Positions 15,311-28,131 of a DNA stretch of 48,416 nucleotides are shown here, piece after piece. A model generated the notes under the pieces. The model was not told where the DNA came from. It made no database searches and saw nothing but the letters and a program-made list of their open reading frames with translations. Made by a program: the position numbers and the translations under genes. Source of the stretch: Clostridiaceae bacterium (GTDB taxonomy: Bacteria > Bacillota > Clostridia > Lachnospirales > Lachnospiraceae); NCBI GenBank assembly GCA_910575585.1, contig CAJTGF010000042.1:1-48416 (forward strand), read 5' to 3'. Each line of letters starts with the position of its first letter. Position 1 is the first letter of the stretch.

Positions 15311-16609
15311 CTAACGGCTCTGTAAAGGCAGTTCCACGGTGAAGCAGGCTCCGCCTGCGCCGCTGTCGGACAAGGTTATGGTTCCGCGGTGGAGCTGTAC
15401 CAGTTCTTTGACGATGGAAAGGCCCAGGCCGAAATGGTGTTTGTCGCTTCGGGAGGCGTCAGCCTGGTAGAAGCGGTCAAACACATGGGGCTTGTCCTGG
15501 TCAGGGATCCCGCACCCTTCATCCAGGATCTGGATGGCCAGTATCTGACTTTGGGGATTGGAGCGGCTGCGGATGGTGATGGAGCGGCCGCCGGGGGTGT
15601 GGTTTTTGGCATTATCCAGGAGAGCTAATAGGAGCTGGCGGATCCTCTGGGGATCGCCGGGAATCTGGGGCAGGGAGGTTTCGGGAAGGTCCAGATTCAG
15701 AGTGATGTCCTTTTGGCGGCAGGCGGGCGCAAAGGATTCAAACAGGTCGATAAGCAGGGTATCCATGTCCACGGCCTGCATCTGGAGGCTCCAGGTTTTG
15801 GCGTCAGCCGATGCCAAGAGCAGCATATCATCAATAAGACGAGACATACGGACGCATTCGCTGTCTATGACGGACAGCAGCGCGTCTTTTTCTTTTGGGC
15901 CGGTTCTCAAGGCAGCGGCGGCGGAGCGGAGCACGGCAAGGGGAGAGCGCAGCTCGTGGGAGGCGGCAGCAATGAAGCGTGCCTGCTTTTGGCGGCTTTC
16001 CTCCACAGGCTTTAGGGACCATCCTACGAATTTCCAGCTAATAAGGCCCAGGCAGGCGATGCCAAACAACGCCAGGACGCACAGGTACAGAAACGTTCCC
16101 CTTAGAGATTCCCTCACAGGGGGGATGTAGGAGATAGCACAGATGCTCTTTACGCCGTTTTTGGCCGCAAGGACCAGAATCATGGCATAGTAGGAGTCCC
16201 TGTGCTGCCCTTCCAGGGTCATCAGGGAGGTGGCGGCAGTGGTGGAAGATATGGGAGCCTGGTCTAAGGAAACGCCCTGGGCCCCCGCCTGGTCTTCGGC
16301 CAGCCGGATCAGAGTCTGGCGGTCCGTGGGAGGCTGCCAGGACCCTTGAAAGAGCAGCGGGGTCCCGTTTTCCTCTATATGGATGACCATCTGGTAATTG
16401 GCCTCTGTCTGGGAGAGAAAACCGTGGGAAACGGTGCTGGAAGTCAGAAACCTGGAGGTTAGGGAGTTCCAAACAACCTGAAAATGTTCCAGCTGGGCGT
16501 TATGGCTTTCTCTGACGGATGACAGCAGAAACGCGCTCATAACAAGGAGCAGGATGGAAGCGGTAGTAATGGTGTAAAGCCCCGCAAGGCGTCTGTGTAA
16601 AGTCTTCAT
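15311..16609 (-). CDS. HisKA-type sensor histidine kinase, separated from its likely regulator
   Basis: About 432 residues. A first membrane helix (residues 9-31), an extracytoplasmic sensor domain of ~130 residues, and a second helix (~170-193) precede the HisKA domain, RFIAAASHELRSPLAVLR with H218. The ATPase domain carries N-box LLALLDNAKNHTPGG, DEGCGIP and GLGLSIVKELVQLHRG. All catalytic motifs are intact; no HAMP domain is obvious. An in-frame ATG at 16639 would extend it by 10 codons but falls about where transcription would begin if the minus-strand TATAAT (16650-16645) is used, so 16609 is preferred. The ribosome binding site AAAGGA is rather far from it (~16 nt). No regulator gene adjoins it; the likeliest partner is at 27451-28131 on the same strand. 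Confidence 0.87.
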   Translation of the reverse strand: MKTLHRRLAGLYTITTASILLLVMSAFLLSSVRESHNAQLEHFQVVWNSLTSRFLTSSTVSHGFLSQTEANYQMVIHIEENGTPLLFQGSWQPPTDRQTLIRLAEDQAGAQGVSLDQAPISSTTAATSLMTLEGQHRDSYYAMILVLAAKNGVKSICAISYIPPVRESLRGTFLYLCVLALFGIACLGLISWKFVGWSLKPVEESRQKQARFIAAASHELRSPLAVLRSAAAALRTGPKEKDALLSVIDSECVRMSRLIDDMLLLASADAKTWSLQMQAVDMDTLLIDLFESFAPACRQKDITLNLDLPETSLPQIPGDPQRIRQLLLALLDNAKNHTPGGRSITIRSRSNPQSQILAIQILDEGCGIPDQDKPHVFDRFYQADASRSDKHHFGLGLSIVKELVQLHRGTITLSDSGAGGACFTVELPLQSR

Positions 16610-16644
16610 AGTACGATATGGAGGATCCTTTCTAAACATAAAAC

Positions 16645-16665: not shown

Positions 16666-16751
16666 CGACTTTACCGTCATCACAACCATTGAGCAAACCA
16701 TGCCCCAAAAACTGCAATTCATGCCTGACCGCTTAAAAGGCCGGATTTTTT

Positions 16752-16760
16752 TGTTATAAT
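16752..16760 (+). promoter_or_regulatory. Extended -10 promoter of the VTC/CotH/GT2 operon
   Basis: TGTTATAAT is a perfect extended -10 (TG-N-TATAAT). The -35 position holds only CTTAAA, a weak match. Transcription should start near 16767, two nucleotides before the outer helix of the leader structure. Confidence 0.7.
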
Positions 16761-16768
16761 GTGGAAGA

Positions 16769-16925
16769 GTACTCCCGAAGTCTTCCCTGCAGCCCTTTCG
16801 AAGACGGAGTTTTGTTGGATGCAACCCCGATTCAATCAACCAACTTGCCATGCACGCCTCATAAGTAAGTGCATGTCTGACAAAACTCCGCTCCCAGATT
16901 TGGGTATTAAAGACTTCGAGGGTAC
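16769..16925 (+). ncRNA. Structured 5' leader RNA, candidate riboswitch or regulatory element
   Basis: The two ends pair as a 16-position helix (16769-16784 with 16910-16925): 14 Watson-Crick pairs, one G-U, one mismatch. Inside are a perfect 11-bp helix CGGAGTTTTGT (16805-16815) with ACAAAACTCCG (16880-16890) and a 7-bp hairpin CATGCAC (16849-16855) with GTGCATG (16869-16875). A local hairpin GTCTTC (16780-16785) with GAAGAC (16800-16805) shares bases with both the outer and the 11-bp helices, so the forms are mutually exclusive. The loop of that local hairpin contains CCCTTT, which could pair with the AAAGG of the ribosome binding site at 16937-16944. I recognise no known riboswitch core. 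A dispersed palindromic repeat is the main alternative. Confidence 0.55.
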
Positions 16926-16953
16926 TTTGTAAGAGTAAAGGAGGATGGCAGCC

Positions 16954-17652
16954 ATGAACGAAGTTTTAAGGCAGGAGAAAAAGTATCTGCTGAATCTTGC
17001 TTTCAGCCATGAGATCTGTCATCGCCTGGGAACGATCATGGCCCAGGATAAACACAATGGAGCCGAGGGCTACCGGATACGTTCTCTGTATTTTGATACC
17101 CTGGATGACAGCGACTATAAGGATAAGCTGGACGGGATGGAGCTGCGCAGAAAGATCCGGCTGCGAAACTATGACCCGTCCGGAGATTTTGCCATGCTGG
17201 AGATGAAGCAAAAAGAGGGGGCATACCAGAGAAAGCGTTCCCTTCCCGTAAAAAGGGAGGACGGACAGCGGCTGCTGCGGGGCGATTACACCCCTCTTTT
17301 GCGATTTTCGGAGCCCTTTGCGGCAGAGTGCTACGGGCTGATGAACCGCATGTGCTACCGCCCCAAGGCAGTGGTGGAGTATCGGCGCAGGGCATACGTG
17401 GCAAAAGAGAACAGGATACGGATCACCATAGACAAGGATATTACGGCTACAGAAGCCTGTTTTGATATATTTTCGGAAAATTTGGCGCAATACCCGGTTT
17501 GGGACGGATTCCATGCAGTGCTGGAAGTCAAATACAACGGTTTTCTCCCAAGCTACATCAAGGAGCTGGTCAGTTCGGTTAACTGCATGGAACTTTCTGT
17601 CAGCAAATATGGGTTGTCGAGAAAAGTGGGACTTTATTCTATTGAACATTAA
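16954..17652 (+). CDS. VTC-domain (polyphosphate polymerase-like) protein
   Basis: A 232-residue soluble protein that is essentially one VTC domain, the tunnel-fold catalytic domain of yeast Vtc4, which makes polyphosphate from ATP. Family elements in order are EKKYLLN near the N-terminus, YRIRSLYFDT, RRKIRLRNY, MLEMKQKEGAYQRKRS, RPKAVVEYRRRAY, RIRITIDKDI, and VLEVKYNGFLP, with basic residues lining the tunnel and the late acidic residue in place. ATG 16945 is possible, but AAAGGAGG touches it; ATG 16954 with a normal 9-nt spacing is better. It leads an eight-gene operon and is followed after 12 nt by a DUF4956 gene. Without membrane helices of its own, it probably works with that protein. 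Whether it makes polyphosphate or uses another substrate is not shown. Confidence 0.88.
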   Translation: MNEVLRQEKKYLLNLAFSHEICHRLGTIMAQDKHNGAEGYRIRSLYFDTLDDSDYKDKLDGMELRRKIRLRNYDPSGDFAMLEMKQKEGAYQRKRSLPVKREDGQRLLRGDYTPLLRFSEPFAAECYGLMNRMCYRPKAVVEYRRRAYVAKENRIRITIDKDITATEACFDIFSENLAQYPVWDGFHAVLEVKYNGFLPSYIKELVSSVNCMELSVSKYGLSRKVGLYSIEH

Positions 17653-17664
17653 GAGGCGCAGCAT

Positions 17665-18342
17665 ATGAAAAAAGAGCTTTTTGAATTATTTGGTTCACCC
17701 AATGATCTGTCCGCGGAGGTGATCCTGGCAAGGCTTTCCATGGCCACAGTGATCGGTTTATTTATTTTTCTGTCTTATCGGCTTTCCCACGACGGAAGCA
17801 TCTACAGCAAGAAGTTTAATGTATCCCTGGTAACCCTGACTATTATAACGACAACGGTGATGATCGTCATTGGAAATAATCTGGCCATGTCCCTTGGTAT
17901 GGTGGGCGCTCTGTCCATCGTGCGTTTTCGGACGGCCATCAAGGATTCCAGGGATGCGGTGTATATTTTTTGGACCATTGTGGCAGGCATCTGCTGCGGC
18001 GCCGGAGATTATGTGGTGGCGGCCATGGGCAGCGCCTTTATCTTTACGGTTCTTTTGCTGTTCGGCCGGATCCGCAATGAAAACCGGGTGCTGATGATTA
18101 TCCGCGGGGCCCGCGTCAATGAGGGCCAGGTGGAGGCTTTGATCTTTCAGCGGTTTTCCAGAAAGGCCACCCTGCGGGTGAAAAATTCTACGGAGACCAA
18201 CATCGAATTTATCTATGAATTGAGCAAAAAGGTGTTCGATAAAAAGCAGAAAACAGACAAAAGCATTATGGATGAGATTTATGCCATCGGCAATATTGAA
18301 TATTTTAACGTTGTGACACAGAATGACGATATCAGCAGTTAA
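17665..18342 (+). CDS. DUF4956 membrane protein
   Basis: A 225-residue protein with four or five membrane helices (about 20-150) and a ~75-residue soluble C-terminal domain. The family hallmark is GMVGALSIVRFRTAIKDSRD near residues 78-97, a conserved glycine- and arginine-rich turn between helices. No biochemical function is established as far as I know. DUF4956 genes commonly sit beside VTC and CotH genes in Clostridia and Actinobacteria, as here, which suggests it is the membrane partner or channel of the VTC protein. A GAGGCG site precedes the ATG. Confidence 0.85.
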   Translation: MKKELFELFGSPNDLSAEVILARLSMATVIGLFIFLSYRLSHDGSIYSKKFNVSLVTLTIITTTVMIVIGNNLAMSLGMVGALSIVRFRTAIKDSRDAVYIFWTIVAGICCGAGDYVVAAMGSAFIFTVLLLFGRIRNENRVLMIIRGARVNEGQVEALIFQRFSRKATLRVKNSTETNIEFIYELSKKVFDKKQKTDKSIMDEIYAIGNIEYFNVVTQNDDISS

Positions 18343-18372
18343 TATGCGCGTGACCCGAAAGAGGGAAAAAAC

Positions 18373-19848
18373 ATGAGATACAAAGTACTGGGTATTGGGA
18401 TGACCGTTTTTATGCTGGCCGCCGCTGCAGTCCTGACCCGTGCGGAAACCGTAAAAGAGCGGGGCCGCGTCCATCATCACCGGGTCGGGCGGCGCGAGGG
18501 CGGATGTGACTGCGGCGGCTTGTCACTGTGTACCCATCTGCCCCTTGTGGTGATCGACACCAGAGGGCAGATGGTCCCGGGGGAGGTTACGCAGGCCAGG
18601 GACCGGTTTGGGCAGATGACCTATACAAAAGCGCCGGACGGGGATACTACAGTCTGTGTGGATCTGAAGGTGATCGACAATGAGACTGCCAACAATCATC
18701 CCGGCGACAAGGAGGCGTTTTCTACGAACTGCCGGCTGCGGGTCCGGGGCAATTCATCCAGGCGGTTTCCCAAGGTCCCCTATGCTCTTGAATTTGTTGA
18801 CGACAAAGGGGAGAACCGGAATATTTCCGTCATGGGTATGGATGCCCATCATCAGTGGGTGCTCAACGGGCCGATCCTGGACAAATCCCTGATACGCAAT
18901 TATATGTGGTACAACATTGCCGGGGAGCTGATGGATTACGCGCCCAATGTGCGGTTTTGCGAGCTTTTGGTAGACGGGCAGTATGAAGGGCTGTATCTGA
19001 TGACGGAGAGCGTCACCGGAGGGAAGGACTGCCGGCTGAAGCTGGCCGCCAATGTGAACAATACCCAGCTGACGGGATATCTTCTGCGGTATGACCGGCC
19101 TACCCAAGAGGATCTGGAGAGCGTGCGGGATATTTACACTTATTCGGAGCGCATGTTCCAGACCCCGCAGGATATTGCCATCCGCTATCCGGGAAAGAAG
19201 AAGCTGACACAGGATATGGCAAAGAGTATTGAGCTGGATTACTCCGCGTTTGAGAAGGCACTCTTTTCCTTTGACTATAATTCGGACAAGTATGGGTATG
19301 AGCAGTGGATCGATGTGGACAGCTTTGTGGACTATTATCTCATAAACGAGTTTACGAAAAATCTGGACGCGGGAAGTTATTCCACCTACATCTATAAAGA
19401 AATAGGAGGGAAGTTTAAATTATGCGTATGGGATTTTAATAATTCCTGCGATAATTACCGTGAGGAGGCGGTTGGCCCCCAGGGGTTTTTCATGAATGAA
19501 AGGGCATGGTATTTTATGCTGATGAAAGATGGGGCATTTGTGGAGCGGGTCCAGAAAAGGTATAAGGAATTAAGAAGAAGTTATTTTAGTGAGGAGTACC
19601 TGATGGGATATATTGAGGAGACGCTGGAGTTTCTTGGGAGCGCCATAGAGCGCAATAATGAGCGCTGGAAGGAGGAGATCGCCAATTGGGGCGGTCTGAT
19701 CCCCCAGGAGCGGAACCTTAGCAGTCATGAAGCCGCGGTGGAGCAGCTGAAAAGCTGGCTGACAGAACGGGGGAGATGGCTGGATGAGAACATTCACGGA
19801 CTGGAACAGTATGGGCATTATTCGCGGAATAAGGTGTATGCCCATTGA
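18373..19848 (+). CDS. CotH-family protein kinase, secreted
   Basis: A 491-residue exported protein. A signal sequence (about 1-24) is followed by an odd segment of some 25 residues rich in His, Arg and Cys (VHHHRVGRREGGCDCGG), then the CotH domain. Motifs are RVRGNSSRRFPKVPYALEF (phosphate-binding lobe), WVLNGPILDKSLIRNY, FCELLVDGQYEGLYLMTE, YYLINEFTKNLDAGSYSTYIYK, and the metal site VWDFNNSCDNY with D354 and N356. In Bacillus subtilis, CotH phosphorylates spore-coat proteins; here the setting is polymer synthesis, so the substrate is probably a surface protein or glycan. AGAGGGAAAAAAC precedes the ATG. It is the third gene of the operon. Confidence 0.88.
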   Translation: MRYKVLGIGMTVFMLAAAAVLTRAETVKERGRVHHHRVGRREGGCDCGGLSLCTHLPLVVIDTRGQMVPGEVTQARDRFGQMTYTKAPDGDTTVCVDLKVIDNETANNHPGDKEAFSTNCRLRVRGNSSRRFPKVPYALEFVDDKGENRNISVMGMDAHHQWVLNGPILDKSLIRNYMWYNIAGELMDYAPNVRFCELLVDGQYEGLYLMTESVTGGKDCRLKLAANVNNTQLTGYLLRYDRPTQEDLESVRDIYTYSERMFQTPQDIAIRYPGKKKLTQDMAKSIELDYSAFEKALFSFDYNSDKYGYEQWIDVDSFVDYYLINEFTKNLDAGSYSTYIYKEIGGKFKLCVWDFNNSCDNYREEAVGPQGFFMNERAWYFMLMKDGAFVERVQKRYKELRRSYFSEEYLMGYIEETLEFLGSAIERNNERWKEEIANWGGLIPQERNLSSHEAAVEQLKSWLTERGRWLDENIHGLEQYGHYSRNKVYAH

Positions 19849-19879
19849 GGAAGCGCATCTGTTTAGAAAGCTGTAGATC

Positions 19880-22132
19880 ATGAAAAAATATATCATTACT
19901 GTTTGTATCCTCATAACCCTCCTTTTTTTGGGATACACCATTTATTACCGTCATGGAGTCTACATAGACATAACCCCCGATGTGGCCGTCACCTCTTTTG
20001 TGACGGTTAACGGAAAAAATATCTGTCTGAAACAGGGACAGGAGGATATGCCTTTTGAGGTGAGAGGCGTGGATATGGGGGTGGGGATGCCGGGAAAGTG
20101 GGCAACGGATTACGCCATAGATAAGGAAATGTATTTTCGGTGGTTTGGCCAGATCCAGGACATGGGAGCCAACACGGTCAGGGTTTATACGATTTTGCAG
20201 GACGATTTCTATGACACGTTTTATGAGTATAACCGGCAGAGTAAGGAGCCGTTGTATCTGATCCATGGGGTTTGGATCAACGACTACGTTTTCAATTCCC
20301 ACCGGGATGCCTATGATGAGGAACTGCTGGACCCTCTTCTTCGGGACTGCCGGGCCGTGGTGGACATTATCCACGGCAAGAAGAGCCTGTCTTTAGGGGA
20401 CGGAGGAGCGTCGGGGACGTATAGAAAGGATATTTCCCCCTGGGTGCTGGGGTATATTATCGGCGTGGAGTGGGAGAGCAGTCTTGTGGTCTATACCAAT
20501 GAAAAAAGCTGGGACAAAAATTCCTACCAGGGAACGTATCTGTACACGGAGCCGGAAGCCACGGCTTTTGAGGCTTTTCTCTGCCAGGTGGGGGATAAGA
20601 TGATCCAGTATGAAAGCAGCAGATACAAGCAGCAGAGGCTGGTGGCGTTTTCCAACTGGCCTACCACAGACCCGTTTGTGTATCCTATGGCAGTAACCTC
20701 CTACCGATATAAGATCGCCTGTGTTGACGTGGAACATATTAAGGCGAAAGAAACGTTTTTGTCGGGGATGTTTGCCTCCTACCATGTGTATCCCTATTTC
20801 CCCGATTATCTGCAGATCATGAAGGAGGGAGACCAATACAGCCAGGAGATGGTGGATGAGCGTCTGGGCGAGGTCATCCGAAAAAATCTGGAATATCACA
20901 CCTCACGTTTAAATGGGGCAAAGATTGAAAAATATCTGACAGACAGGGACTACTATGACTCCAGAGGGCGGTACAATACCTATAGGGCTTATCTGAAAGC
21001 CCTTAACCGGTATCATACCATTCCGGTTATTATTTCCGAGTACGGCGTTACCACCGGAAGGGGGATGGCCCAGAGGGATGTGAATACGGGGCGCAACCAA
21101 GGACATATGACGGAACAGGAACAGGGGCAGGCCCTTATTGACTGCTACCGGGATATTATGGACGCGGGGTGCGCGGGCAGCTGTGTGTTTACCTGGCAGG
21201 ATGAGTGGTTTAAGCGGACCTGGAACACCATGCATGCCGTGGATTTGGACAAGACGCCTTACTGGAGCGACTGCCAGACCAATGAACAGTATTTCGGGCT
21301 TCTGTCCTTTGACCCGGGCAGTGAGGAAAGTGTCTGCTATGTGGACGGCGATATTTCCGAGTGGACCGCAGACGACGTGGTGATGACCGCGGATGACATG
21401 GAGCTGTCCGTAAAGTATGATGAGAAATATATGTATTTTCTGGTGAAAAAACAGAGATTTGATCCGGAACATGACACCTTGTACATTCCGCTGGACATTA
21501 CGCCCAAAAGCGGCAGTACCTGGTGCAAAGAGTACAACGTGGCTTTTGAGCGGGCCTGCGACTTTGTGGTGGTCATCAAAGGGAAGGAGCACAGCCGGGT
21601 AATGGTGCAGAAGCGGTATGAGGCCCTGTTGTCTACCTACGGAGGCCCTTATTACCAGGAGGACCCTTACCTGAATCCGCCAGAGATATGTACGCCCAAT
21701 TTTGAGCGGGTCTATCTGCCCCTGATCTTAACCGGGGTTTTTCCGGACCGCAAATCCACGGCGCCCACAGGGGTGAAATACGAGACCGGCCTTTTGCGGT
21801 ACGGAAACGGCAATCCGTCGGCAGAAGAGTTTGACTCTCTTGCGGACTTTATTTTTGCGGGGGATTATGTGGAACTGCGGATCCCCTGGCAGGTGTTAAA
21901 CTTCTCCAACCCGTCGGAGATGATGGTACATGATGACTACTATGAACACTATGGGATAGAAAATCTGCGGGTTAAGGAGATATACGCAGGAGTGGGATGG
22001 TCCGGAGGGACCAGTCACCGGATCCCTATGGCAGCCGTTTCTTTAAAAGGCTGGGGGAAGAAGGTGACCTTTCATGAGCGGCTGAAACAATCGTACTACA
22101 TGTTGAAGGCGTACTGGACCGGCAGTCCGTGA
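19880..22132 (+). CDS. Membrane-anchored glycosidase-like protein with C-terminal carbohydrate-binding-like domain
   Basis: A 750-residue protein anchored by one N-terminal helix (residues 4-23) and otherwise outside the cell. Residues ~40-480 look like a clan-A (beta/alpha)8 glycosidase: RGVDMGVGMPGKW and MGANTVRVYTILQDDFYD as in beta-1,3-glucanosyl/GH5-like enzymes, a candidate acid/base at E197 or E199 (GYIIGVEWES), and a candidate nucleophile E387 in IISEYGVTTGRG. CVFTWQDEWFKRTWN follows. Residues ~488-730 form a second beta domain (DGDISEWTADDVVMT...) resembling CBM9/DOMON domains. Its place beside a processive synthase suggests trimming, transfer or anchoring of the polymer. The ribosome binding site is weak. 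Confidence 0.7.
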   Translation: MKKYIITVCILITLLFLGYTIYYRHGVYIDITPDVAVTSFVTVNGKNICLKQGQEDMPFEVRGVDMGVGMPGKWATDYAIDKEMYFRWFGQIQDMGANTVRVYTILQDDFYDTFYEYNRQSKEPLYLIHGVWINDYVFNSHRDAYDEELLDPLLRDCRAVVDIIHGKKSLSLGDGGASGTYRKDISPWVLGYIIGVEWESSLVVYTNEKSWDKNSYQGTYLYTEPEATAFEAFLCQVGDKMIQYESSRYKQQRLVAFSNWPTTDPFVYPMAVTSYRYKIACVDVEHIKAKETFLSGMFASYHVYPYFPDYLQIMKEGDQYSQEMVDERLGEVIRKNLEYHTSRLNGAKIEKYLTDRDYYDSRGRYNTYRAYLKALNRYHTIPVIISEYGVTTGRGMAQRDVNTGRNQGHMTEQEQGQALIDCYRDIMDAGCAGSCVFTWQDEWFKRTWNTMHAVDLDKTPYWSDCQTNEQYFGLLSFDPGSEESVCYVDGDISEWTADDVVMTADDMELSVKYDEKYMYFLVKKQRFDPEHDTLYIPLDITPKSGSTWCKEYNVAFERACDFVVVIKGKEHSRVMVQKRYEALLSTYGGPYYQEDPYLNPPEICTPNFERVYLPLILTGVFPDRKSTAPTGVKYETGLLRYGNGNPSAEEFDSLADFIFAGDYVELRIPWQVLNFSNPSEMMVHDDYYEHYGIENLRVKEIYAGVGWSGGTSHRIPMAAVSLKGWGKKVTFHERLKQSYYMLKAYWTGSP

Positions 22133-22162
22133 CGGGCTTTGGCAGGAATGAGGTGATGGAAC

Positions 22163-23269
22163 GTGGGCAGTGAGGTGCTGTTATACGGGTATGGGGCTGT
22201 GTGCCTGAGCATGCTGGTGTTTAATATTGTCAACAGCATGGTAATGAAAAAGCAGGAGATGAGGCTGGAGAGAACGTGCAGAATTCTGGCCGGTCAGGTG
22301 GAGATCCAGCTGGAACGCATCCGGGAGGGAGGATCCGTGGATGAAAAACACATCCGCTACCTGTCATGGAAGCTGTCCCATATAATAAATTTGGTGGCCT
22401 TTGACCATGTGATGGAGACCTTCCTGGAAAATGACCGGGAGCCTGGGGCCGGGGAATACAAGAAACAGATACAGCCGGTGATCTTTCATCTGGCGGTGGT
22501 GTATCTGCGGCGGGAAACGATGCAGTCCGCTTATTTTGCCTACTTCCTGTCCAGAAACGGGCTGCAGAGTTATATGGCGGCGGATGCCCTGGAAGACATC
22601 CTGGTCCAGTACATGAGAAAGCAGAACCTTTACTGCCGCGTCAATGCCCTGGACGCGCTGTGCGGGTTTGGCTCCGGGGAGAGCGTTGTAAAAGCCCTGA
22701 TGCTGTTGAACCAGGAAGGCGGGTTTATCCACGAGAAGATACTGACAGACGGCCTTCTGGCTTTTAACGGCAGCCATGACCAGCTGATGGGGCTTTTGTG
22801 GGATAAATTTGAGAGATTTTCCGGCAGGATGCAGATGGTGATCTTAAATTACACCCGCTTTAAAAGCGGCGATTACTGTGAGAGCATGTTTCGGATCATG
22901 GTGGACCCGGGCAGGGACAAAGAGCAGAGGCTTTTGGCTATCCGCTATTTCGGCCGGTATTTTTATGAGCCTGCCAGGGAATCTCTCCTTGCCTTTGCCT
23001 TGGACCAGAACCCTTTAAACTGGGAGTACGCCGCGGTAAGCGTCTCATCCCTGGCAGGATATCCGGGGGAGCAGGTGGTGACGGCGCTCATAGACGCGGT
23101 CCACAGCTCCAACTGGTATGTGCGCTACAATGCGGCGGCAAGCCTGGAAACTCATGAGGGCTATGATTGGGAGTGGATGGACGCGGCAGGCGGCAACGAC
23201 CGGTATGCCAGGGAGATGCTGATGTACCGGCTGGAACTTAACAATGCCAGAAAAGGAGACAAGTTATGA
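22163..23269 (+). CDS. HEAT-repeat protein with N-terminal membrane anchor
   Basis: A 368-residue protein starting at GTG 22163 behind GAGGTGA. One N-terminal membrane helix (about 4-26) precedes a charged helical region and then alpha-helical pairs of HEAT type. The clearest is near the C-terminus (NPLNWEYAAVSVSSLAGYPGEQVVTALIDAVHSSNWYVRYNAAASLE), with a typical R/NAAxxL pattern. No catalytic motif is visible. HEAT arrays are protein-binding scaffolds; here it would tether operon partners such as the synthase to the membrane. Its last codons overlap the synthase start (ATGA), so the two are translationally coupled. Confidence 0.75.
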   Translation: MGSEVLLYGYGAVCLSMLVFNIVNSMVMKKQEMRLERTCRILAGQVEIQLERIREGGSVDEKHIRYLSWKLSHIINLVAFDHVMETFLENDREPGAGEYKKQIQPVIFHLAVVYLRRETMQSAYFAYFLSRNGLQSYMAADALEDILVQYMRKQNLYCRVNALDALCGFGSGESVVKALMLLNQEGGFIHEKILTDGLLAFNGSHDQLMGLLWDKFERFSGRMQMVILNYTRFKSGDYCESMFRIMVDPGRDKEQRLLAIRYFGRYFYEPARESLLAFALDQNPLNWEYAAVSVSSLAGYPGEQVVTALIDAVHSSNWYVRYNAAASLETHEGYDWEWMDAAGGNDRYAREMLMYRLELNNARKGDKL

Positions 23270-24678
23270 GAGAGGCGTTTCAGGTGTTTTTTCATGGAGT
23301 GGGAATTTTTTTTGTCCTGTACATGATCGGGTACGCCAGCTTTCTCTTTCTGTCCGTAACCGTAGGCACCACGTCCTTGTACAACGCCAAAAGGAACAAC
23401 GCCCTGAAAAATGAACTGCAGAGGGATTACTATATGCCGGTGTCCATACTTGTGCCTGCCCACAACGAGAGCATTACCATCAAAGCCACCATTGATTCGC
23501 TTCTGGCGCTGGACTACCTGCTCTACGAGATCGTGGTGGTGGACGACGGTTCCACGGACGATACGGCCCGGGTTATGGAAAAAGCCTTTCACATGGCCCG
23601 GGTAAACCGCCCCATCCAGAGAAGACTGGCCTGTCAGGAGGCGGAGGCAGTTTACGAGACAAACGCGTACAAGGTGCCGATCACCTTGATCCGAAAGAAA
23701 AACGGCGGCAAAGCCGATGCCCTGAACATGGGGATCAACATGGCAAAGTATCCCTATTTTCTCTGTATTGACGCGGACTCGGTGCTGCAAAGCGATTCCC
23801 TGAAAAAGATCGTACGGCCTGTGCTGGAGGATGACCGGGTTGTGGCTGTGGGCGGAGCTGTGCGGCCGTGCAACGGGGCCGAGATCCAGGACGGAAAGCT
23901 GATTCGCTACCGCATGCCCCAAAAACTTCTGGCCTGTATGCAGGTGCTGGAGTATGACCGCTCTTTTTTGGCTTCCCGCATCCTCTTTGACAAGTTTAAC
24001 GGCAATATCATCGTGTCAGGGGCCTTTGGGCTGTTTAAAAAGAACGTGGTCATGGAAGCGGGAGGGTATGACGTGACCACCATGGGGGAAGACATGGAGC
24101 TGGTGGTCAAGCTTCATGTGTTTTGCAGAGAGCATGGGATGGAGTACAGGATACGGTACGCCACTGACGCCATCTGCTGGACCCAGGCGCCGGAAAAGCT
24201 GTCGGATCTGTGCAGGCAGCGGAGGCGGTGGCACATCGGGCTGTATCAGAGCATGATAAGGCACCAAAGGATCCTGGCCAATCCCAAATACGGCATGGTA
24301 GGTCTGGTGTCCTATTTGTATTTTTTGATCTATGAGCTTTTATCCCCATACATTGAGGTGTTCGGCACCGTAGCCATGGCTGCGGCATGGATGATGGGAT
24401 TTCTCAATATTTCCTATATGTTTTTGTATCTGGGGATCTATGTGATGTATTCTTCCATCCTGTCGCTGACCGCCTTTTTTGCCAGGGTCCATACCATTGA
24501 CCTAAAGCTGACGTTTGCGGACGGTATAAAGGCTGTGGGGCTGTGCGCGGCGGAGGTATCCTGCCTGCGGTTTATCCTGGCATGGGTGCGGGTGACGGCT
24601 CTGGGGCGGGGAAAGAGACGTAATGTGTGGGGACAGATTGAGAGAAAGGCGATCAATTTCAAAAGCAGCAGTCAGTAA
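23266..24678 (+). CDS. Processive GT2-family polysaccharide synthase
   Basis: A 470-residue membrane synthase with one N-terminal helix (about 8-30), a cytoplasmic GT-A domain, and three or four C-terminal helices (about 350-450). It has the full processive signature: D93/D94 in VVVDDGSTDD, D169-A-D171, E275-D276 in GEDMEL, and Q318-R-R-R-W322. This D,D,D,QxxRW set is shared by cellulose, hyaluronan and poly-GlcNAc synthases, which polymerise and export in one step. There is no PilZ domain, so any c-di-GMP control must come from another protein; the neighbouring EAL protein is the obvious candidate. The product is unknown. Confidence 0.9.
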   Translation: MREAFQVFFHGVGIFFVLYMIGYASFLFLSVTVGTTSLYNAKRNNALKNELQRDYYMPVSILVPAHNESITIKATIDSLLALDYLLYEIVVVDDGSTDDTARVMEKAFHMARVNRPIQRRLACQEAEAVYETNAYKVPITLIRKKNGGKADALNMGINMAKYPYFLCIDADSVLQSDSLKKIVRPVLEDDRVVAVGGAVRPCNGAEIQDGKLIRYRMPQKLLACMQVLEYDRSFLASRILFDKFNGNIIVSGAFGLFKKNVVMEAGGYDVTTMGEDMELVVKLHVFCREHGMEYRIRYATDAICWTQAPEKLSDLCRQRRRWHIGLYQSMIRHQRILANPKYGMVGLVSYLYFLIYELLSPYIEVFGTVAMAAAWMMGFLNISYMFLYLGIYVMYSSILSLTAFFARVHTIDLKLTFADGIKAVGLCAAEVSCLRFILAWVRVTALGRGKRRNVWGQIERKAINFKSSSQ

Positions 24679-24712
24679 AACGGCAAAAGGATTCTATCAG
24701 GAGAGTGCGTAA

Positions 24713-26536
24713 GTGGGAAAAGCGGTCATCTATGTGGCAGGAAACCCTGATTCCTACCCAGTGGAATATTATGACGCCCGGGAGGGTATTTACAAGGGGA
24801 TGATCCCGGATCTTTTTCGGGAATTTTCGGAAAGCTCGGATTACGATATTGAGTACTATAAGCCGGGGGAGGAGGATCTGCGGGAGCCTTTGGCTGAAGA
24901 GAGGCAGGTGGATATCATCTCCGGATGTGTGGGGGAGGAGTCGTTTCGCCATCGGTCCCAGGGGGAGATCGTGGTGCTGGAGACAAGGATAGGAGGGGAA
25001 TCGATCTTCTACCGTATTCTGATGACAGACGCGGCGCCGCAGCAGCTGAAGGGGGATCTGGAGGATTTTGTTTCGGCGGTTTCCCAGGAGAGCAAGGCGG
25101 GGATGCTGATCGATTGTTCCCAGGGAAAGCCTGCGCTTTACAGAAAGAGGACTAAGCTGGCCTTTGGGGGGCTGGGGGTTGCGATCCTGGGGCTGACAGT
25201 GGGAGCTGTGTGGCTGGCAGGAAGGTGCAGACGTTACCGCAGGGCTGCGGATAAAAGAGATGAGACGGACAGCCTTACGGGGATCGGCAACGAAACATAT
25301 CTTTCCCGCAATTTTGAAAGGTTCGTTGTCCGGGAAAACAGGGCTTTGTACGCCATGGTTTATTTTTATGCGGATACGGACAAAATGAGAAAGACCAGGA
25401 GCAGTGAAGAAACCGATGGATTTGTGCGTCGTATGGCTTCGGCGCTTTTGGGGTTTACCGGGGAACGGGATATTTTGGCCAGAGTCAGCGATCAGGGGTT
25501 TGTCATGGTGCGGATGTGTCCCGGGGATGAGGAGCTGCGGCAATGGGTTTTGTCTGTTTTGGCCCGCGTCCGGGGGGTGGGGGAGGATCACGGCCGGTAT
25601 GTGAGCGCCGGTATGTGCCGGTTAAAGGACGGAGACTGGGATCTGGACGGATGCCTTCTTCATGTGAGCCAGGCGGCCCGGGCTGCCTGTGGGGAGGATC
25701 TGGATTATAAGGTGTGTACCGATAGTTGGATCCGCCAGTTCAGGGAGGAGAGAAAGCTGCAGGGGGACATAGAACGGGGGCTGGAGAACCAGGAATTTCA
25801 GCTGTATATCCAGTTTTACGCAGATGCGGCCCAGGGGCGGATCGTAGGGGGAGAGGCCCTGGCCCGGTGGGGCCATCCGGAAAAAGGAGTTCTGTCTCCC
25901 GGCAGTTTTATTCCACTGATGGAAAGGGCGGGGCTTATGGGGCAGCTGGATTTTTACGCTTTGGATCAGGCATGCGGTTTTTTGGAGAGGCTCCATCAGG
26001 TGGGGATGGAGGACTTTTTTATGTCCTGCAATTTTTCTCCGGCGACCCTGAAGGAGGAGGGATTTATGGACCGCTGCAGCCAGATTATAAAGACGCACCA
26101 GTTTGACAGAGGGCGGCTGATCTTCCAGGTTCCAAAGAAAGCTTTCAATGAGGAACTTGCTGTTGTCATCAAGTATGTCAGGCAGTTGAAAGATATGGGG
26201 GTACGGGTTGCGCTGGATGATTTTGGGGAGGGATTCGCCGCTTATGCGGATATAAACGAGTATATGCCGGATGTTCTGCAGCTGGATAAACGGCTGGTAG
26301 GTCTTCTTGGCACAGATGCGGGCAATGCCATTGTAAAAGCCATGGTTCAAGTGAGTCATGAGCTGGGGATCAGGGTTATGGCGGAAGGCGCCCAGGAGAA
26401 GGACCAGGCCGGGCTTTTGCGGGACATGGGATGTGATATGATCCAGGGATTTTGGTTTTACCGGCCCATACCGGCGTGGGAGGCGGTAAGAAAACTGTTG
26501 GAACAGTCTGCGGATGCAGGGAAAGGCGGATTATGA
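24713..26536 (+). CDS. Degenerate GGDEF-EAL protein with periplasmic-binding-like N-domain
   Basis: 607 residues from GTG 24713 (AGGAGA 9 nt upstream; an in-frame TAA directly precedes it). Residues 1-145 resemble a family-3 solute-binding domain (YKGMIPDLFREFSE), followed by one membrane helix (149-170). The GGDEF domain begins DSLTGIGNE (186-194), but its active-site loop reads SDQGF (259-263), so it cannot be a cyclase. The EAL domain keeps E381 (EALARW), N440, D502/D503 (DDFG) and E558, but the second catalytic motif ELTE is QVPK (472-475) and the conserved lysine is Q523, so hydrolysis is unlikely. Best read as a c-di-GMP receptor of the LapD/FimX kind controlling the synthase. A signal peptide is missing, which is odd for the N-domain. 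Confidence 0.85.
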   Translation: MGKAVIYVAGNPDSYPVEYYDAREGIYKGMIPDLFREFSESSDYDIEYYKPGEEDLREPLAEERQVDIISGCVGEESFRHRSQGEIVVLETRIGGESIFYRILMTDAAPQQLKGDLEDFVSAVSQESKAGMLIDCSQGKPALYRKRTKLAFGGLGVAILGLTVGAVWLAGRCRRYRRAADKRDETDSLTGIGNETYLSRNFERFVVRENRALYAMVYFYADTDKMRKTRSSEETDGFVRRMASALLGFTGERDILARVSDQGFVMVRMCPGDEELRQWVLSVLARVRGVGEDHGRYVSAGMCRLKDGDWDLDGCLLHVSQAARAACGEDLDYKVCTDSWIRQFREERKLQGDIERGLENQEFQLYIQFYADAAQGRIVGGEALARWGHPEKGVLSPGSFIPLMERAGLMGQLDFYALDQACGFLERLHQVGMEDFFMSCNFSPATLKEEGFMDRCSQIIKTHQFDRGRLIFQVPKKAFNEELAVVIKYVRQLKDMGVRVALDDFGEGFAAYADINEYMPDVLQLDKRLVGLLGTDAGNAIVKAMVQVSHELGIRVMAEGAQEKDQAGLLRDMGCDMIQGFWFYRPIPAWEAVRKLLEQSADAGKGGL

Positions 26537-27438
26537 GAAAACAGATCTATTGGGCTGTAAGCGGGATCGTGGCGTTGGCGGCATGGGGCGCGGTCCTTGG
26601 CTTTGGAGGCCCGGGACAGGAAAAAGAGCGTGGCTCTGGGGAGGGCTTCGGCATGTTCAGCTGGGATGAGACGGTCATAGGGCCGGAGGAGATGGAGGCT
26701 CTGTCTTCGGTTGCCAAAAGAGCCAATGTGAGCGTCATTTACCAAACGTTTTCCAGGGAATGCCTGGAGGGGCCAGAGAGCGCTGTTTTTGTGGCCGGCA
26801 TGAAGGACAGGGGGATGGATGTGTTTGCCCTTATGGGGGATGCCGCCTGGGCTTATGAACGTGACGGAAAGACCCTGATCGAGCAGATCCGGTATGTGGC
26901 GGAGTACAATGAGAGGCATAAGGATAAAGGCAGGATACAGGGGGTCATGGTGGATGTGGAGCCTTATCTTCTGGATGAGTGGGATGGGGGGAAGGAAAAG
27001 CGGGCGGAATTGATGGCAGGGTACGGGGCCTGCATGGAGCGTGCTTATGCCTACGCATCGGAGAGGCAGCTGACATTTTTGGTGTGCATCCCCACCTTTT
27101 ATGACGCGACAAATGAAGATATCCTGGAGCGGCTGATCGCTTATGGGTGCGACGGTGTGGCGGTAATGAATTATAACCGGAAAGACGAGTACGGACAGAT
27201 GGCCAAAGAGGTGGGATTTGCCAGGGAGTATGGGAAGGAGATTATCTGCATTTATGAATTGCAGAAGCCGGGAAAGCACCAGCTGGAGGAGATCAATACC
27301 TACGCCAATGAGGGGCTGGAGGCTTTGAGACAGTCCGCCTGGCGGCTGGAGCGGCAGTTCGGGTATGACAGGCTCCGATTTGCGTACCATTATTATAAAC
27401 CGCTGAAAGAGCTTGTGGAGAAAGAGAAGGGGCAGTGA
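26533..27438 (+). CDS. Secreted GH18-like TIM-barrel protein
   Basis: 301 residues from ATG 26533, which overlaps the stop of the EAL gene as ATGA; GGCGG lies just upstream. The frame extends back to 26452, but that part would overlap the EAL gene. A signal or anchor helix (about 5-24) precedes a (beta/alpha)8-like domain. QGVMVDVEPYLLDEW places D141 and E143 at a barrel strand end, resembling the DxE of GH18 enzymes, and DGVAVMNYNRKDEYG (208-222) resembles the GH18 MxYN strand. A glycan hydrolase acting on the polymer made by this operon is the natural guess. It closes the operon and is followed at once by a terminator. Confidence 0.68.
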   Translation: MRKQIYWAVSGIVALAAWGAVLGFGGPGQEKERGSGEGFGMFSWDETVIGPEEMEALSSVAKRANVSVIYQTFSRECLEGPESAVFVAGMKDRGMDVFALMGDAAWAYERDGKTLIEQIRYVAEYNERHKDKGRIQGVMVDVEPYLLDEWDGGKEKRAELMAGYGACMERAYAYASERQLTFLVCIPTFYDATNEDILERLIAYGCDGVAVMNYNRKDEYGQMAKEVGFAREYGKEIICIYELQKPGKHQLEEINTYANEGLEALRQSAWRLERQFGYDRLRFAYHYYKPLKELVEKEKGQ

Positions 27439-27465
27439 CGTTTGGAAAAGTCACTGTCCTTTTTC
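27433..27465 (+). terminator. Intrinsic terminator at the end of the polymer operon
   Basis: CAGTGAC (27433-27439) and GTCACTG (27450-27456) form a perfect 7-bp stem with a 10-nt loop, followed by TCCTTTTTCTTCC. The stem includes the stop codon of the GH18-like gene and the convergent regulator's stop codon. Confidence 0.75.
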
Positions 27466-28131
27466 TTCCAGGCGGTAGCCTATGCCATGGACGGTGGTTA
27501 ATTTTACGGGGGCGTCCAGGGATTTAAGGCGGCGCCTTAGGAAGTAGATGTAATTATCCAGGTTGCCGTCTTCCACCTCGCTGGACAGCCCCCACACATA
27601 GGACAGGATCCTGGGGCGGGGGAGCGTCTGACCGGGATTTTTCAGGAAGAACTCCAGAAGGGCGGCTTCTTTTTTTGACAGGGTCAGGGACATATCTCCA
27701 AAGTCCAGACGGCGGCTGCCCGGAGTAAGGGTCAGCCCCAGGGCGGTGATGCTGGGGGATATCTGAAGATTACCCGGCCTTCTGGTGACGGCCCGGATGC
27801 GGGCCATAAGTTCTTCCACGGCAAAGGGCTTTACCAGATAATCATCGGCTCCCGCGTCCAGGCCGTTTACGCGGTCATGGAGCCCGTCCAGGGCAGTGGC
27901 AAGGATGACCGGGGTTCGGATGCCCTGGCGCCGCAGGGAGCTAAGGACAAAAAGGCCGTCCAGGCCGGGCAGCATGCGGTCCAGGATGATAGCGTCATAA
28001 GGGTGGTTTTGAGCGTAAAAAAGGCCGTCGTTCCCGGTGTGGCAGATGTCGGTGGCGTAGCCGGACTGTTCCAGGGTAAGAGCGATGAAACGGCACAGAT
28101 CCTGGTCGTCTTCAATAATCAAGATTCTCAT
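27451..28131 (-). CDS. OmpR/PhoB-family response regulator
   Basis: A 226-residue regulator. The receiver domain has the acidic pocket in IIEDDQD, phospho-acceptor D51 in IILDRMLPG, and K in YLVKPFAVEEL. A winged-helix domain follows (about 130-224), ending VKLTTVHGIGYRLEEKG. AAGGAG lies 8 nt before the ATG. No kinase adjoins it. Its reading direction points at the kinase at 15311-16609, as if the eight-gene polymer operon had been placed between a former regulator-kinase pair. Its promoter shares a 13-bp box with that of the divergent ABC operon, which implies autoregulation and control of that operon. Confidence 0.92.
   Translation of the reverse strand: MRILIIEDDQDLCRFIALTLEQSGYATDICHTGNDGLFYAQNHPYDAIILDRMLPGLDGLFVLSSLRRQGIRTPVILATALDGLHDRVNGLDAGADDYLVKPFAVEELMARIRAVTRRPGNLQISPSITALGLTLTPGSRRLDFGDMSLTLSKKEAALLEFFLKNPGQTLPRPRILSYVWGLSSEVEDGNLDNYIYFLRRRLKSLDAPVKLTTVHGIGYRLEEKGQ

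Follow-up and report, generated by a model that had tools for sequence, protein, structure and literature searches.

The closest described counterparts of the system investigated in this study include the Pel clusters of Gram-positive bacteria where, in the part of the source available to us, a CotH protein, a polyphosphate polymerase (PPP) and a DUF4956 protein are listed beside the synthase, and where the DUF4832 gene is replaced in Bifidobacterium loci by one for a dual cyclase/phosphodiesterase (PMC7112168). In S. intermedius, the Pel-linked set of cotH, PPP, DUF4956 and DUF4832 comprises SIR_1591-1594, and the accessible text of this 2025 paper reports altered Pel levels and aggregation once the homologues of DUF4956 and CotH had been deleted, together with the statement that the syntenic trio was not found outside the Pel locus in its analyses (PMC12345266). 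These phenotypes lend the trio genetic support. The system in question is encoded on a stretch of 48,416 nucleotides of a Clostridiaceae bacterium (contig CAJTGF010000042.1 of assembly GCA_910575585.1, a genome of 6.1 Mb in 253 contigs), which as a whole constitutes the window of our analysis. Contrary to the 2025 statement, window-type loci show the trio beside a non-Pel synthase. With a probability of roughly three in four, we take the unit to be a synthase-dependent exopolysaccharide machine with an add-on phosphate module that would be coupled to cyclic di-GMP (c-di-GMP), an assignment that builds on features observed directly in the sequences, namely the gene set, its order and conservation, gene fusions, conserved residues and neighbours. 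Its eight open reading frames (ORFs), all on the + strand between 16954 and 27438, encode in order VTC, DUF4956, CotH, GLY, HEAT, GT2, GGDEF-EAL and a barrel protein:

16954..17652, + strand, VTC-domain protein with polyphosphate polymerase fold (PF09359, E-value 5.1e-42; no transmembrane (TM) segment found)
17665..18342, + strand, DUF4956 membrane protein (PF16316, 8.4e-12; sub-threshold MgtC match; three hydrophobic segments by hydropathy)
18373..19848, + strand, CotH-family kinase-fold protein, probably exported (PF08757, 1e-59; N-terminal hydrophobic segment)
19880..22132, + strand, GLY (gene 4), N-terminally anchored glycosidase-like protein (GH157/GH2-like barrel and C-terminal beta domain)
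22163..23269, + strand, HEAT-repeat protein with GTG start, probable cytosolic scaffold (PF13646, 4.8e-6; N-terminal hydrophobic helix)
23266..24678, + strand, GT2 synthase of processive type, PgaC/IcaA-like (PF00535, 6.3e-28)
24713..26536, + strand, protein with SBP-like domain, one TM segment, degenerate GGDEF domain and EAL domain (EAL 5e-58; GGDEF and SBP_bac_3 below cut-off)
26533..27438, + strand, N-terminally anchored (beta/alpha)8 barrel (gene 8) with an invariant D-x-E (Cwp19/GH18/PgaB-like)

The relationship to Pel clusters extends to the presence of CotH, a VTC-type polymerase and DUF4956 next to a synthase, accompanied, in the sources as far as available, by a glycosidase. The window differs in its synthase, a GT2 enzyme with a HEAT partner, and in its EAL protein, which is unlike PelD, and PelG found no match in its genome. 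The order also differs, with VTC-DUF4956-CotH in the window and CotH-VTC-DUF4956 in two Pel-linked loci described below (L212 and L213; numbers preceded by L are our locus labels). Another counterpart, by names and lengths, is found in NELoc-2 of C. perfringens, for which the tabulated gene list contains VTC, 'tubulin/FtsZ', CotH of 497 amino acids (aa), a hypothetical protein of 685 aa, HEAT of 377 aa and a glycosyltransferase of 466 aa (PMC2879425, Table 4). Judged from this published table, these would correspond to the first six genes of the window in the same order, with the 'tubulin/FtsZ' entry corresponding to DUF4956 by size and place. As listed, NELoc-2 has features of its own, since VTC and 'tubulin' occur there as a pair once more, together with a resolvase, and a sigma factor is encoded at one end, and in the accessible parts of both accounts the EAL protein and the second barrel are not listed and no polysaccharide reading is given (PMC2879425, PMC11677781). 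The preliminary description of this DNA had known of no described system that joins the trio to a synthase and a degenerate EAL receptor, which is too strong a wording because the NELoc-2 list was printed in 2010 (PMC2879425) and again, with a deacetylase, in 2024 (PMC11677781); the Bifidobacterium Pel loci, as far as the source could be consulted, form another closely related set (PMC7112168). A published account of the GT2-type system was not found in our literature searches. The association of the trio with another synthase, one that is unrelated to Pel and located outside its loci, looks new, as does the occurrence of the GLY-HEAT-GT2 core without it.

Further likenesses concern parts of the unit. 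The ydaJKLMN genes of Bacillus subtilis resemble it as a putative exopolysaccharide synthase operon with a c-di-GMP receptor, YdaK, that clusters with the synthase, a comparison by description alone, and VTC, DUF4956 and CotH are not mentioned in the available part of that source (PMC7064775). With respect to the poly-N-acetylglucosamine systems PgaABCD and IcaABCD, the GT2 protein of the window scores far below the PgaC cut-off, and a profile search places a deacetylase-type protein at the unit in 8/80 loci, where the two proteins tested match PF01522 with 3e-15 and 4e-13, which hints at an N-acetylated sugar. The eukaryotic VTC complex has the VTC catalytic domain in common and, according to the accessible text, links the synthesis of polyphosphate in the cytosol to its membrane translocation (PMC9911596), whereas the window combines a VTC protein lacking a TM segment with a separate membrane protein. 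At most, the analogy hints at a joint role of VTC and DUF4956 in making and translocating polyphosphate.

That the eight genes are tightly spaced and co-directional, as initially described, is borne out by their presence as open frames with intergenic gaps of 12, 30, 31, 30, -4, 34 and -4 bp. Pfam names VTC (144.5 bits, cut-off 23), DUF4956, CotH (203 bits, cut-off 23.8), GT2 and EAL above cut-off and HEAT slightly below it (27.2 bits, cut-off 27.7), and genes 4 and 8 show no Pfam match at E 0.1. The VTC gene most likely starts at 16954 rather than at the listed ATG at 16945, because GGAGG at 16940-16944 abuts the latter; gene 8 starts at 26533 and overlaps the EAL stop codon as ATGA. Processive GT2 enzymes carry D, DxD, ED and QRRRW motifs, and their counterparts VDDGS, DADS, GEDMEL and QRRRW are intact, in agreement with the preliminary description. 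In GLY, whose fold appears to be GH157-like, a Glu is found where the mutated active-site Glu of GH157 would be expected, and E387 is among the conserved residues, as are the GT2 motifs and the D-x-E of gene 8. The description of the latter as GH18-like stands for the barrel and the D-x-E, both of which resemble GH18, but the Pfam GH18 profile gave no match at E 0.1.

The conservation of the unit was investigated by scanning named genomes with an alignment of gene 4, keeping the best 80 of at least 592 loci, and by running profiles on all ORFs (built from 13-17 sequences for each core gene, the window among them, from 6 for EAL and from 10 for gene 8). The six-gene count refers to 65/80 and the seven-gene count to 55/80 loci, the remaining 15 and 25 being without enough flank, and some loci are doubled under two names (L034/L058, L036/L066, L039/L088 and L041/L126; L145/L146 match L052/L104). 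The preliminary description had regarded the genes as one unit that relatives should share, and VTC-DUF4956-CotH-GLY-HEAT-GT2 are found in this order and on one strand in 61/65 loci as scored and in 64/65 after correction, since three of the four misses (L078, L086 and L095) do carry a VTC gene that was hidden by the ORF filter, the fourth (L079) having its CotH gene cut. An EAL gene follows the six-gene set in 42/55 loci as scored (45/55 corrected), whereas gene 8 is located downstream in 14/80 and upstream in 4/80 loci. Among the hosts are Flavonifractor, Anaerotignum, Blautia, Oscillibacter and Paenibacillus agaridevorans. In the family of the window, the gene-4 protein is present in 18/200 genomes, own included, and 12 of the 17 others contain the six-gene set, in one case split over two contigs and in another with gene 4 interrupted.

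The proposed link between a surface polysaccharide and c-di-GMP signalling is supported by this synteny, by natural fusions and by neighbouring genes. In L039:8332-11661 (L088 is the same contig), a protein of 1109 aa joins GT2 to the SBP-TM-GGDEF-EAL protein with EAL motifs kept, and in L043, a trio-free locus, HEAT and GT2 are fused into a protein of 976 aa; because such fusions exist, synthase, scaffold and c-di-GMP protein appear to be linked. Both GT2 and EAL are present in 62/80 loci. GGDEF-domain proteins are found at the locus in six examined relatives (L036, L058, L059, L073, L076 and L106) and receiver-HD proteins in three (L058, L059 and L076, the last also with an Hpt protein and a hybrid kinase), although the ten neighbour proteins tested were picked for their signalling-like look and give no frequency. 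The genome of the window itself contains 11 GGDEF matches, 10 of them over the cut-off. In 35/80 loci, a gene for a coiled-coil protein of about 165 aa, whose start is DivIVA-like, is located directly 3' of GT2 (e.g. L058:14874-15374); three of four such proteins tested match Pfam DivIVA with 3.5e-4 to 6e-3, all below cut-off, and the gene is missing from the window unit. In relatives, this protein might direct the synthase to poles or septa.

The EAL domain had initially been called dead. At nine positions that we take to be catalytic or metal-binding, placed by alignment, the window reads ENQDDQEQQ compared to the common ENEDDKEEQ, with Q472, Q523 and Q561 replacing E, K and E at the ITES, K and GVE positions. 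The term thus fits the window copy, where 3/9 residues are lost, but fails as a trait of the system, with all nine intact in 49/65 homologues, a count that holds two doubles (47/63 without them) and scores truncated rows as not intact. Among these 65, Q472 and Q523 occur together only in the window, L052 and L104. The GGDEF site of the window reads SDQGF, and PF00990 remains below cut-off. Because the nine positions are intact in most homologues and not in the window, most members resemble phosphodiesterases whose GGDEF half is spent, whereas the clade of the window would have lost catalysis.

In the resulting scheme, in which we infer the polymer chemistry, the direction of regulation and the whole phosphate step, GT2 would polymerise a sugar, perhaps a hexosamine, and extrude the polymer, with the HEAT protein serving as its cytosolic scaffold. 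The SBP-GGDEF-EAL protein would sit on the synthase and couple a ligand to c-di-GMP, as a probable phosphodiesterase in most relatives and as a non-catalytic c-di-GMP reader in the window clade, and the two anchored barrels might trim or release the polymer. At the membrane, VTC would make polyphosphate or a related phosphate chain with DUF4956 as membrane partner, and the exported CotH protein would phosphorylate a surface target. The earlier suggestion that the polymer itself is phosphorylated was a guess that is not supported as worded, although residues of VTC and CotH are conserved.

Several observations weigh against parts of this scheme. The GT2 protein reaches 156 bits with the NCBIfam PgaC equivalog, far from its cut-off of 422.3, which makes any assignment of the sugar tentative. 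Two of the three GH157 structure entries found are complexes with laminari-oligosaccharides, and the trio-free locus L207, from a 7.3-Mb genome, contains a nucleotide-sugar dehydrogenase (TIGR03026 over cut-off), which together make a plain hexosamine polymer less favoured. The SBP-like domain (24713-25200) precedes the single TM segment, and neither the window nor its nearer relatives have a signal peptide ahead of it, whereas other homologues have an N-terminal hydrophobic segment in this sensor; the topology is puzzling, and sensing outside the cell is thus uncertain for the window clade. With respect to the phosphate module, VTC matches the Vtc4 profile only weakly (E 1.6e-4), no GT2 was recognised by our own model at 18 arbitrary VTC-DUF4956 pairs, and the available text on S. 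intermedius does not list the polyphosphate-polymerase homologue with those mutants that changed, and reports no phenotype for the mutant of the glycosidase, although this enzyme was active (PMC12345266).

Basic residues of VTC are conserved in 29 alignment rows, and D332 and D354 of CotH are invariant in 29 rows and align with Asp of 5jd9 in a stretch whose score is not significant; these two Asp might belong to the CotH kinase site. Outside the unit, 20 DUF4956 loci were taken arbitrarily from the family, and 18 of them have VTC next door according to our own profile, which missed one VTC beside L156 that Pfam detects; CotH was not recognised by our own profile in any of the 20. Among ten picked neighbours of VTC-DUF4956 pairs, nine are Cthe_2159 carbohydrate-binding proteins and one a peptidase. 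This adjacency of Cthe_2159 (L157, L158, L160, L162, L166, L168, L169, L171 and L174) is an observation in its own right, of which we did not find a published description. In L212 and L213, two loci of the same family that were spotted by eye among the matches listed for VTC, DUF4956 and PelG, a PelG gene is followed by a weak CotH match (30 and 19 bits), immediately in L213 and with one intervening ORF in L212, and then by VTC and DUF4956. The Pel accessory trio cotH/PPP/DUF4956 is present in the window, and in trees of 33 and 35 rows, which carry a long-branch warning, the VTC and DUF4956 proteins of the unit group with those of the Pel-linked loci, apart from all other pairs, with support of 100/100 and 100/99. 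Since it is not confined to Pel, the CotH/polyphosphate/DUF4956 trio is likely a general exopolysaccharide add-on.

The alternative that survives best concerns the target of this module, which might be protein, such as the surface glycosidases or wall proteins, instead of the polysaccharide, with polyphosphate as by-product or as the modification itself. CotH acts as protein kinase in the spore coat, as described in the accessible part of the source (PMC7112168), and other VTC-DUF4956 pairs adjoin a carbohydrate-binding protein, both of which would fit; the conserved union of the trio with polymerases of two unrelated kinds argues for the polymer, and we consider a protein target possible, if the less probable choice.

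A second alternative, in which two units are read as one and a phosphate-storage or stress trio is merely located upstream of a polysaccharide operon of GLY, HEAT, GT2 and EAL, draws on loci where the two parts are separate. In 5 of the 17 other family genomes (L043 and L048-L051), gene 4 has no trio beside it. Across the phylum, where gene 4 was detected at E 1e-40 in 18/398 genomes, own included, one of the 17 other loci (L195) contains the full six genes with the trio, and eight show GLY, HEAT and GT2 matches without trio matches, the HEAT matches scoring just 22-70 bits. The order is GLY-HEAT-GT2 in five of these (L196, with a receiver gene inside, L199, L206, L207 and L208), and HEAT-GT2 precedes GLY in three (L197, L209 and L210). 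Because these eight loci have the core without the trio, GLY-HEAT-GT2 is, as judged from gene content, the older or wider core and VTC-DUF4956-CotH the add-on. The VTC-DUF4956 pairs found elsewhere with Cthe_2159 would also be in line with an independent trio. However, the order kept in 61/65 loci, the short gaps in the window, the presence of the trio beside Pel and the grouping of unit and Pel-linked proteins apart from the other pairs in both trees, subject to the long-branch warning, make a chance neighbourhood unlikely. A much more specific proposal regards the trio as a portable extracellular phosphorylation module, where polyphosphate made by VTC would cross the membrane through DUF4956 and serve the exported CotH protein, instead of ATP, as the phosphoryl donor for decorating an exopolysaccharide, the module being attached to two unrelated synthases, Pel and the GT2-HEAT machine, with the c-di-GMP protein coupled directly to the synthase; in this full form we rate it as quite unlikely.

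The ends of the exopolysaccharide unit and its surroundings contain the following features:

16733..16760, + strand, promoter-like TTAAAA-16-TATAAT with TG ahead of the -10 element (10/12 matches)
16766..16929, + strand, palindromic repeat copy between promoter and VTC, resembling a miniature inverted-repeat transposable element (MITE-like)
27430..27463, + strand, probable terminator GGGCAGTGAC with a 10-bp stem, 10-nt loop and T tract, read by eye
15311..16639, - strand, sensor histidine kinase flanking the unit (Pfam/profile matches)
27451..28131, - strand, OmpR-type response regulator flanking the unit (Pfam/profile matches)

The promoter-like site is one of four with 10/12 matches among the 24 sites found (11.1 expected), and the same hexamers are present in the congeners L145 and L146. 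The terminator overlaps the 3' end of the convergent response regulator gene and is absent from the output of the scanner, whose loops are limited to 3-8 nt compared to 10 nt in this hairpin. With a promoter-like site and a terminator read by eye, one transcript across all eight genes is plausible at most. The repeat in the leader folds into a single long hairpin (z -3.3, -61.7 kcal/mol) and is thus predicted to add a strong hairpin to the start of the message. It measures about 165 bp with GTACTC...GAGTAC-type ends in the copies inspected (matches L133-L136 and L139), and has 38 further matches in its own genome (39 in total), which are confined to its right-hand part (base 76 of the query onwards) and show 69-79% identity, and 12 in the congener G204; it is missing from the leaders of L145 and L146. 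A riboswitch or regulatory RNA in the leader was rejected, the hairpin being a dispersed repeat that is missing in two congeners, and Rfam gave no match above the gathering score in the window and only a chance-level match in the leader stretch. An invertible promoter was likewise rejected, with the promoter located outside the inverted arms of the repeat.

With respect to its genomic location, a kinase match is found in 21/26 genomes of the genus, own included, and the 12 best loci were inspected. Regulator and kinase are adjacent in eight of these (L147-L154), separated by at most about 200 bp, and their 1.5-kb flanks contain an SBP gene in four, argH in four and both in three; in L155, at the edge of a contig, the end of the regulator adjoins the kinase. 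The window and L145/L146 have the kinase gene diverging from VTC, and L052/L104 have the regulator at the far end. Two unit-bearing congeners match, by their leader sequence, metagenome-assembled genomes labelled uncultured Hungatella. Because congeners without the unit at this site have both genes side by side, it most likely entered the regulator-kinase junction in antisense orientation in an ancestor of these strains, a probable insertion in this genus that looks new; loss of the unit from the other congeners would be the alternative. The two-component pair as a conserved part of the system was rejected, with matches of >60% identity to both genes in just 2/80 loci (L052 and L104), and the pair thus most likely constitutes the insertion site. 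That the unit is decaying or silent in the window genome, as the altered EAL string and the mobile repeat between promoter and first gene, absent from two congeners, might suggest, is very unlikely given eight open frames, retained promoter hexamers, GT2 motifs and GLY glutamate, and two of three EAL losses that are common to L052/L104 and hence no fresh lesion.

Collectively, the assignment of the unit as a c-di-GMP-coupled exopolysaccharide machine with a phosphate module would provide a testable function for a gene set that is spread through many firmicutes. By gene names and order, as far as the published accounts are available, the same function would extend to NELoc-2, whose role they leave unexplained. 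It also raises the question of which phosphoryl donor would be used by an exported kinase outside the cell.

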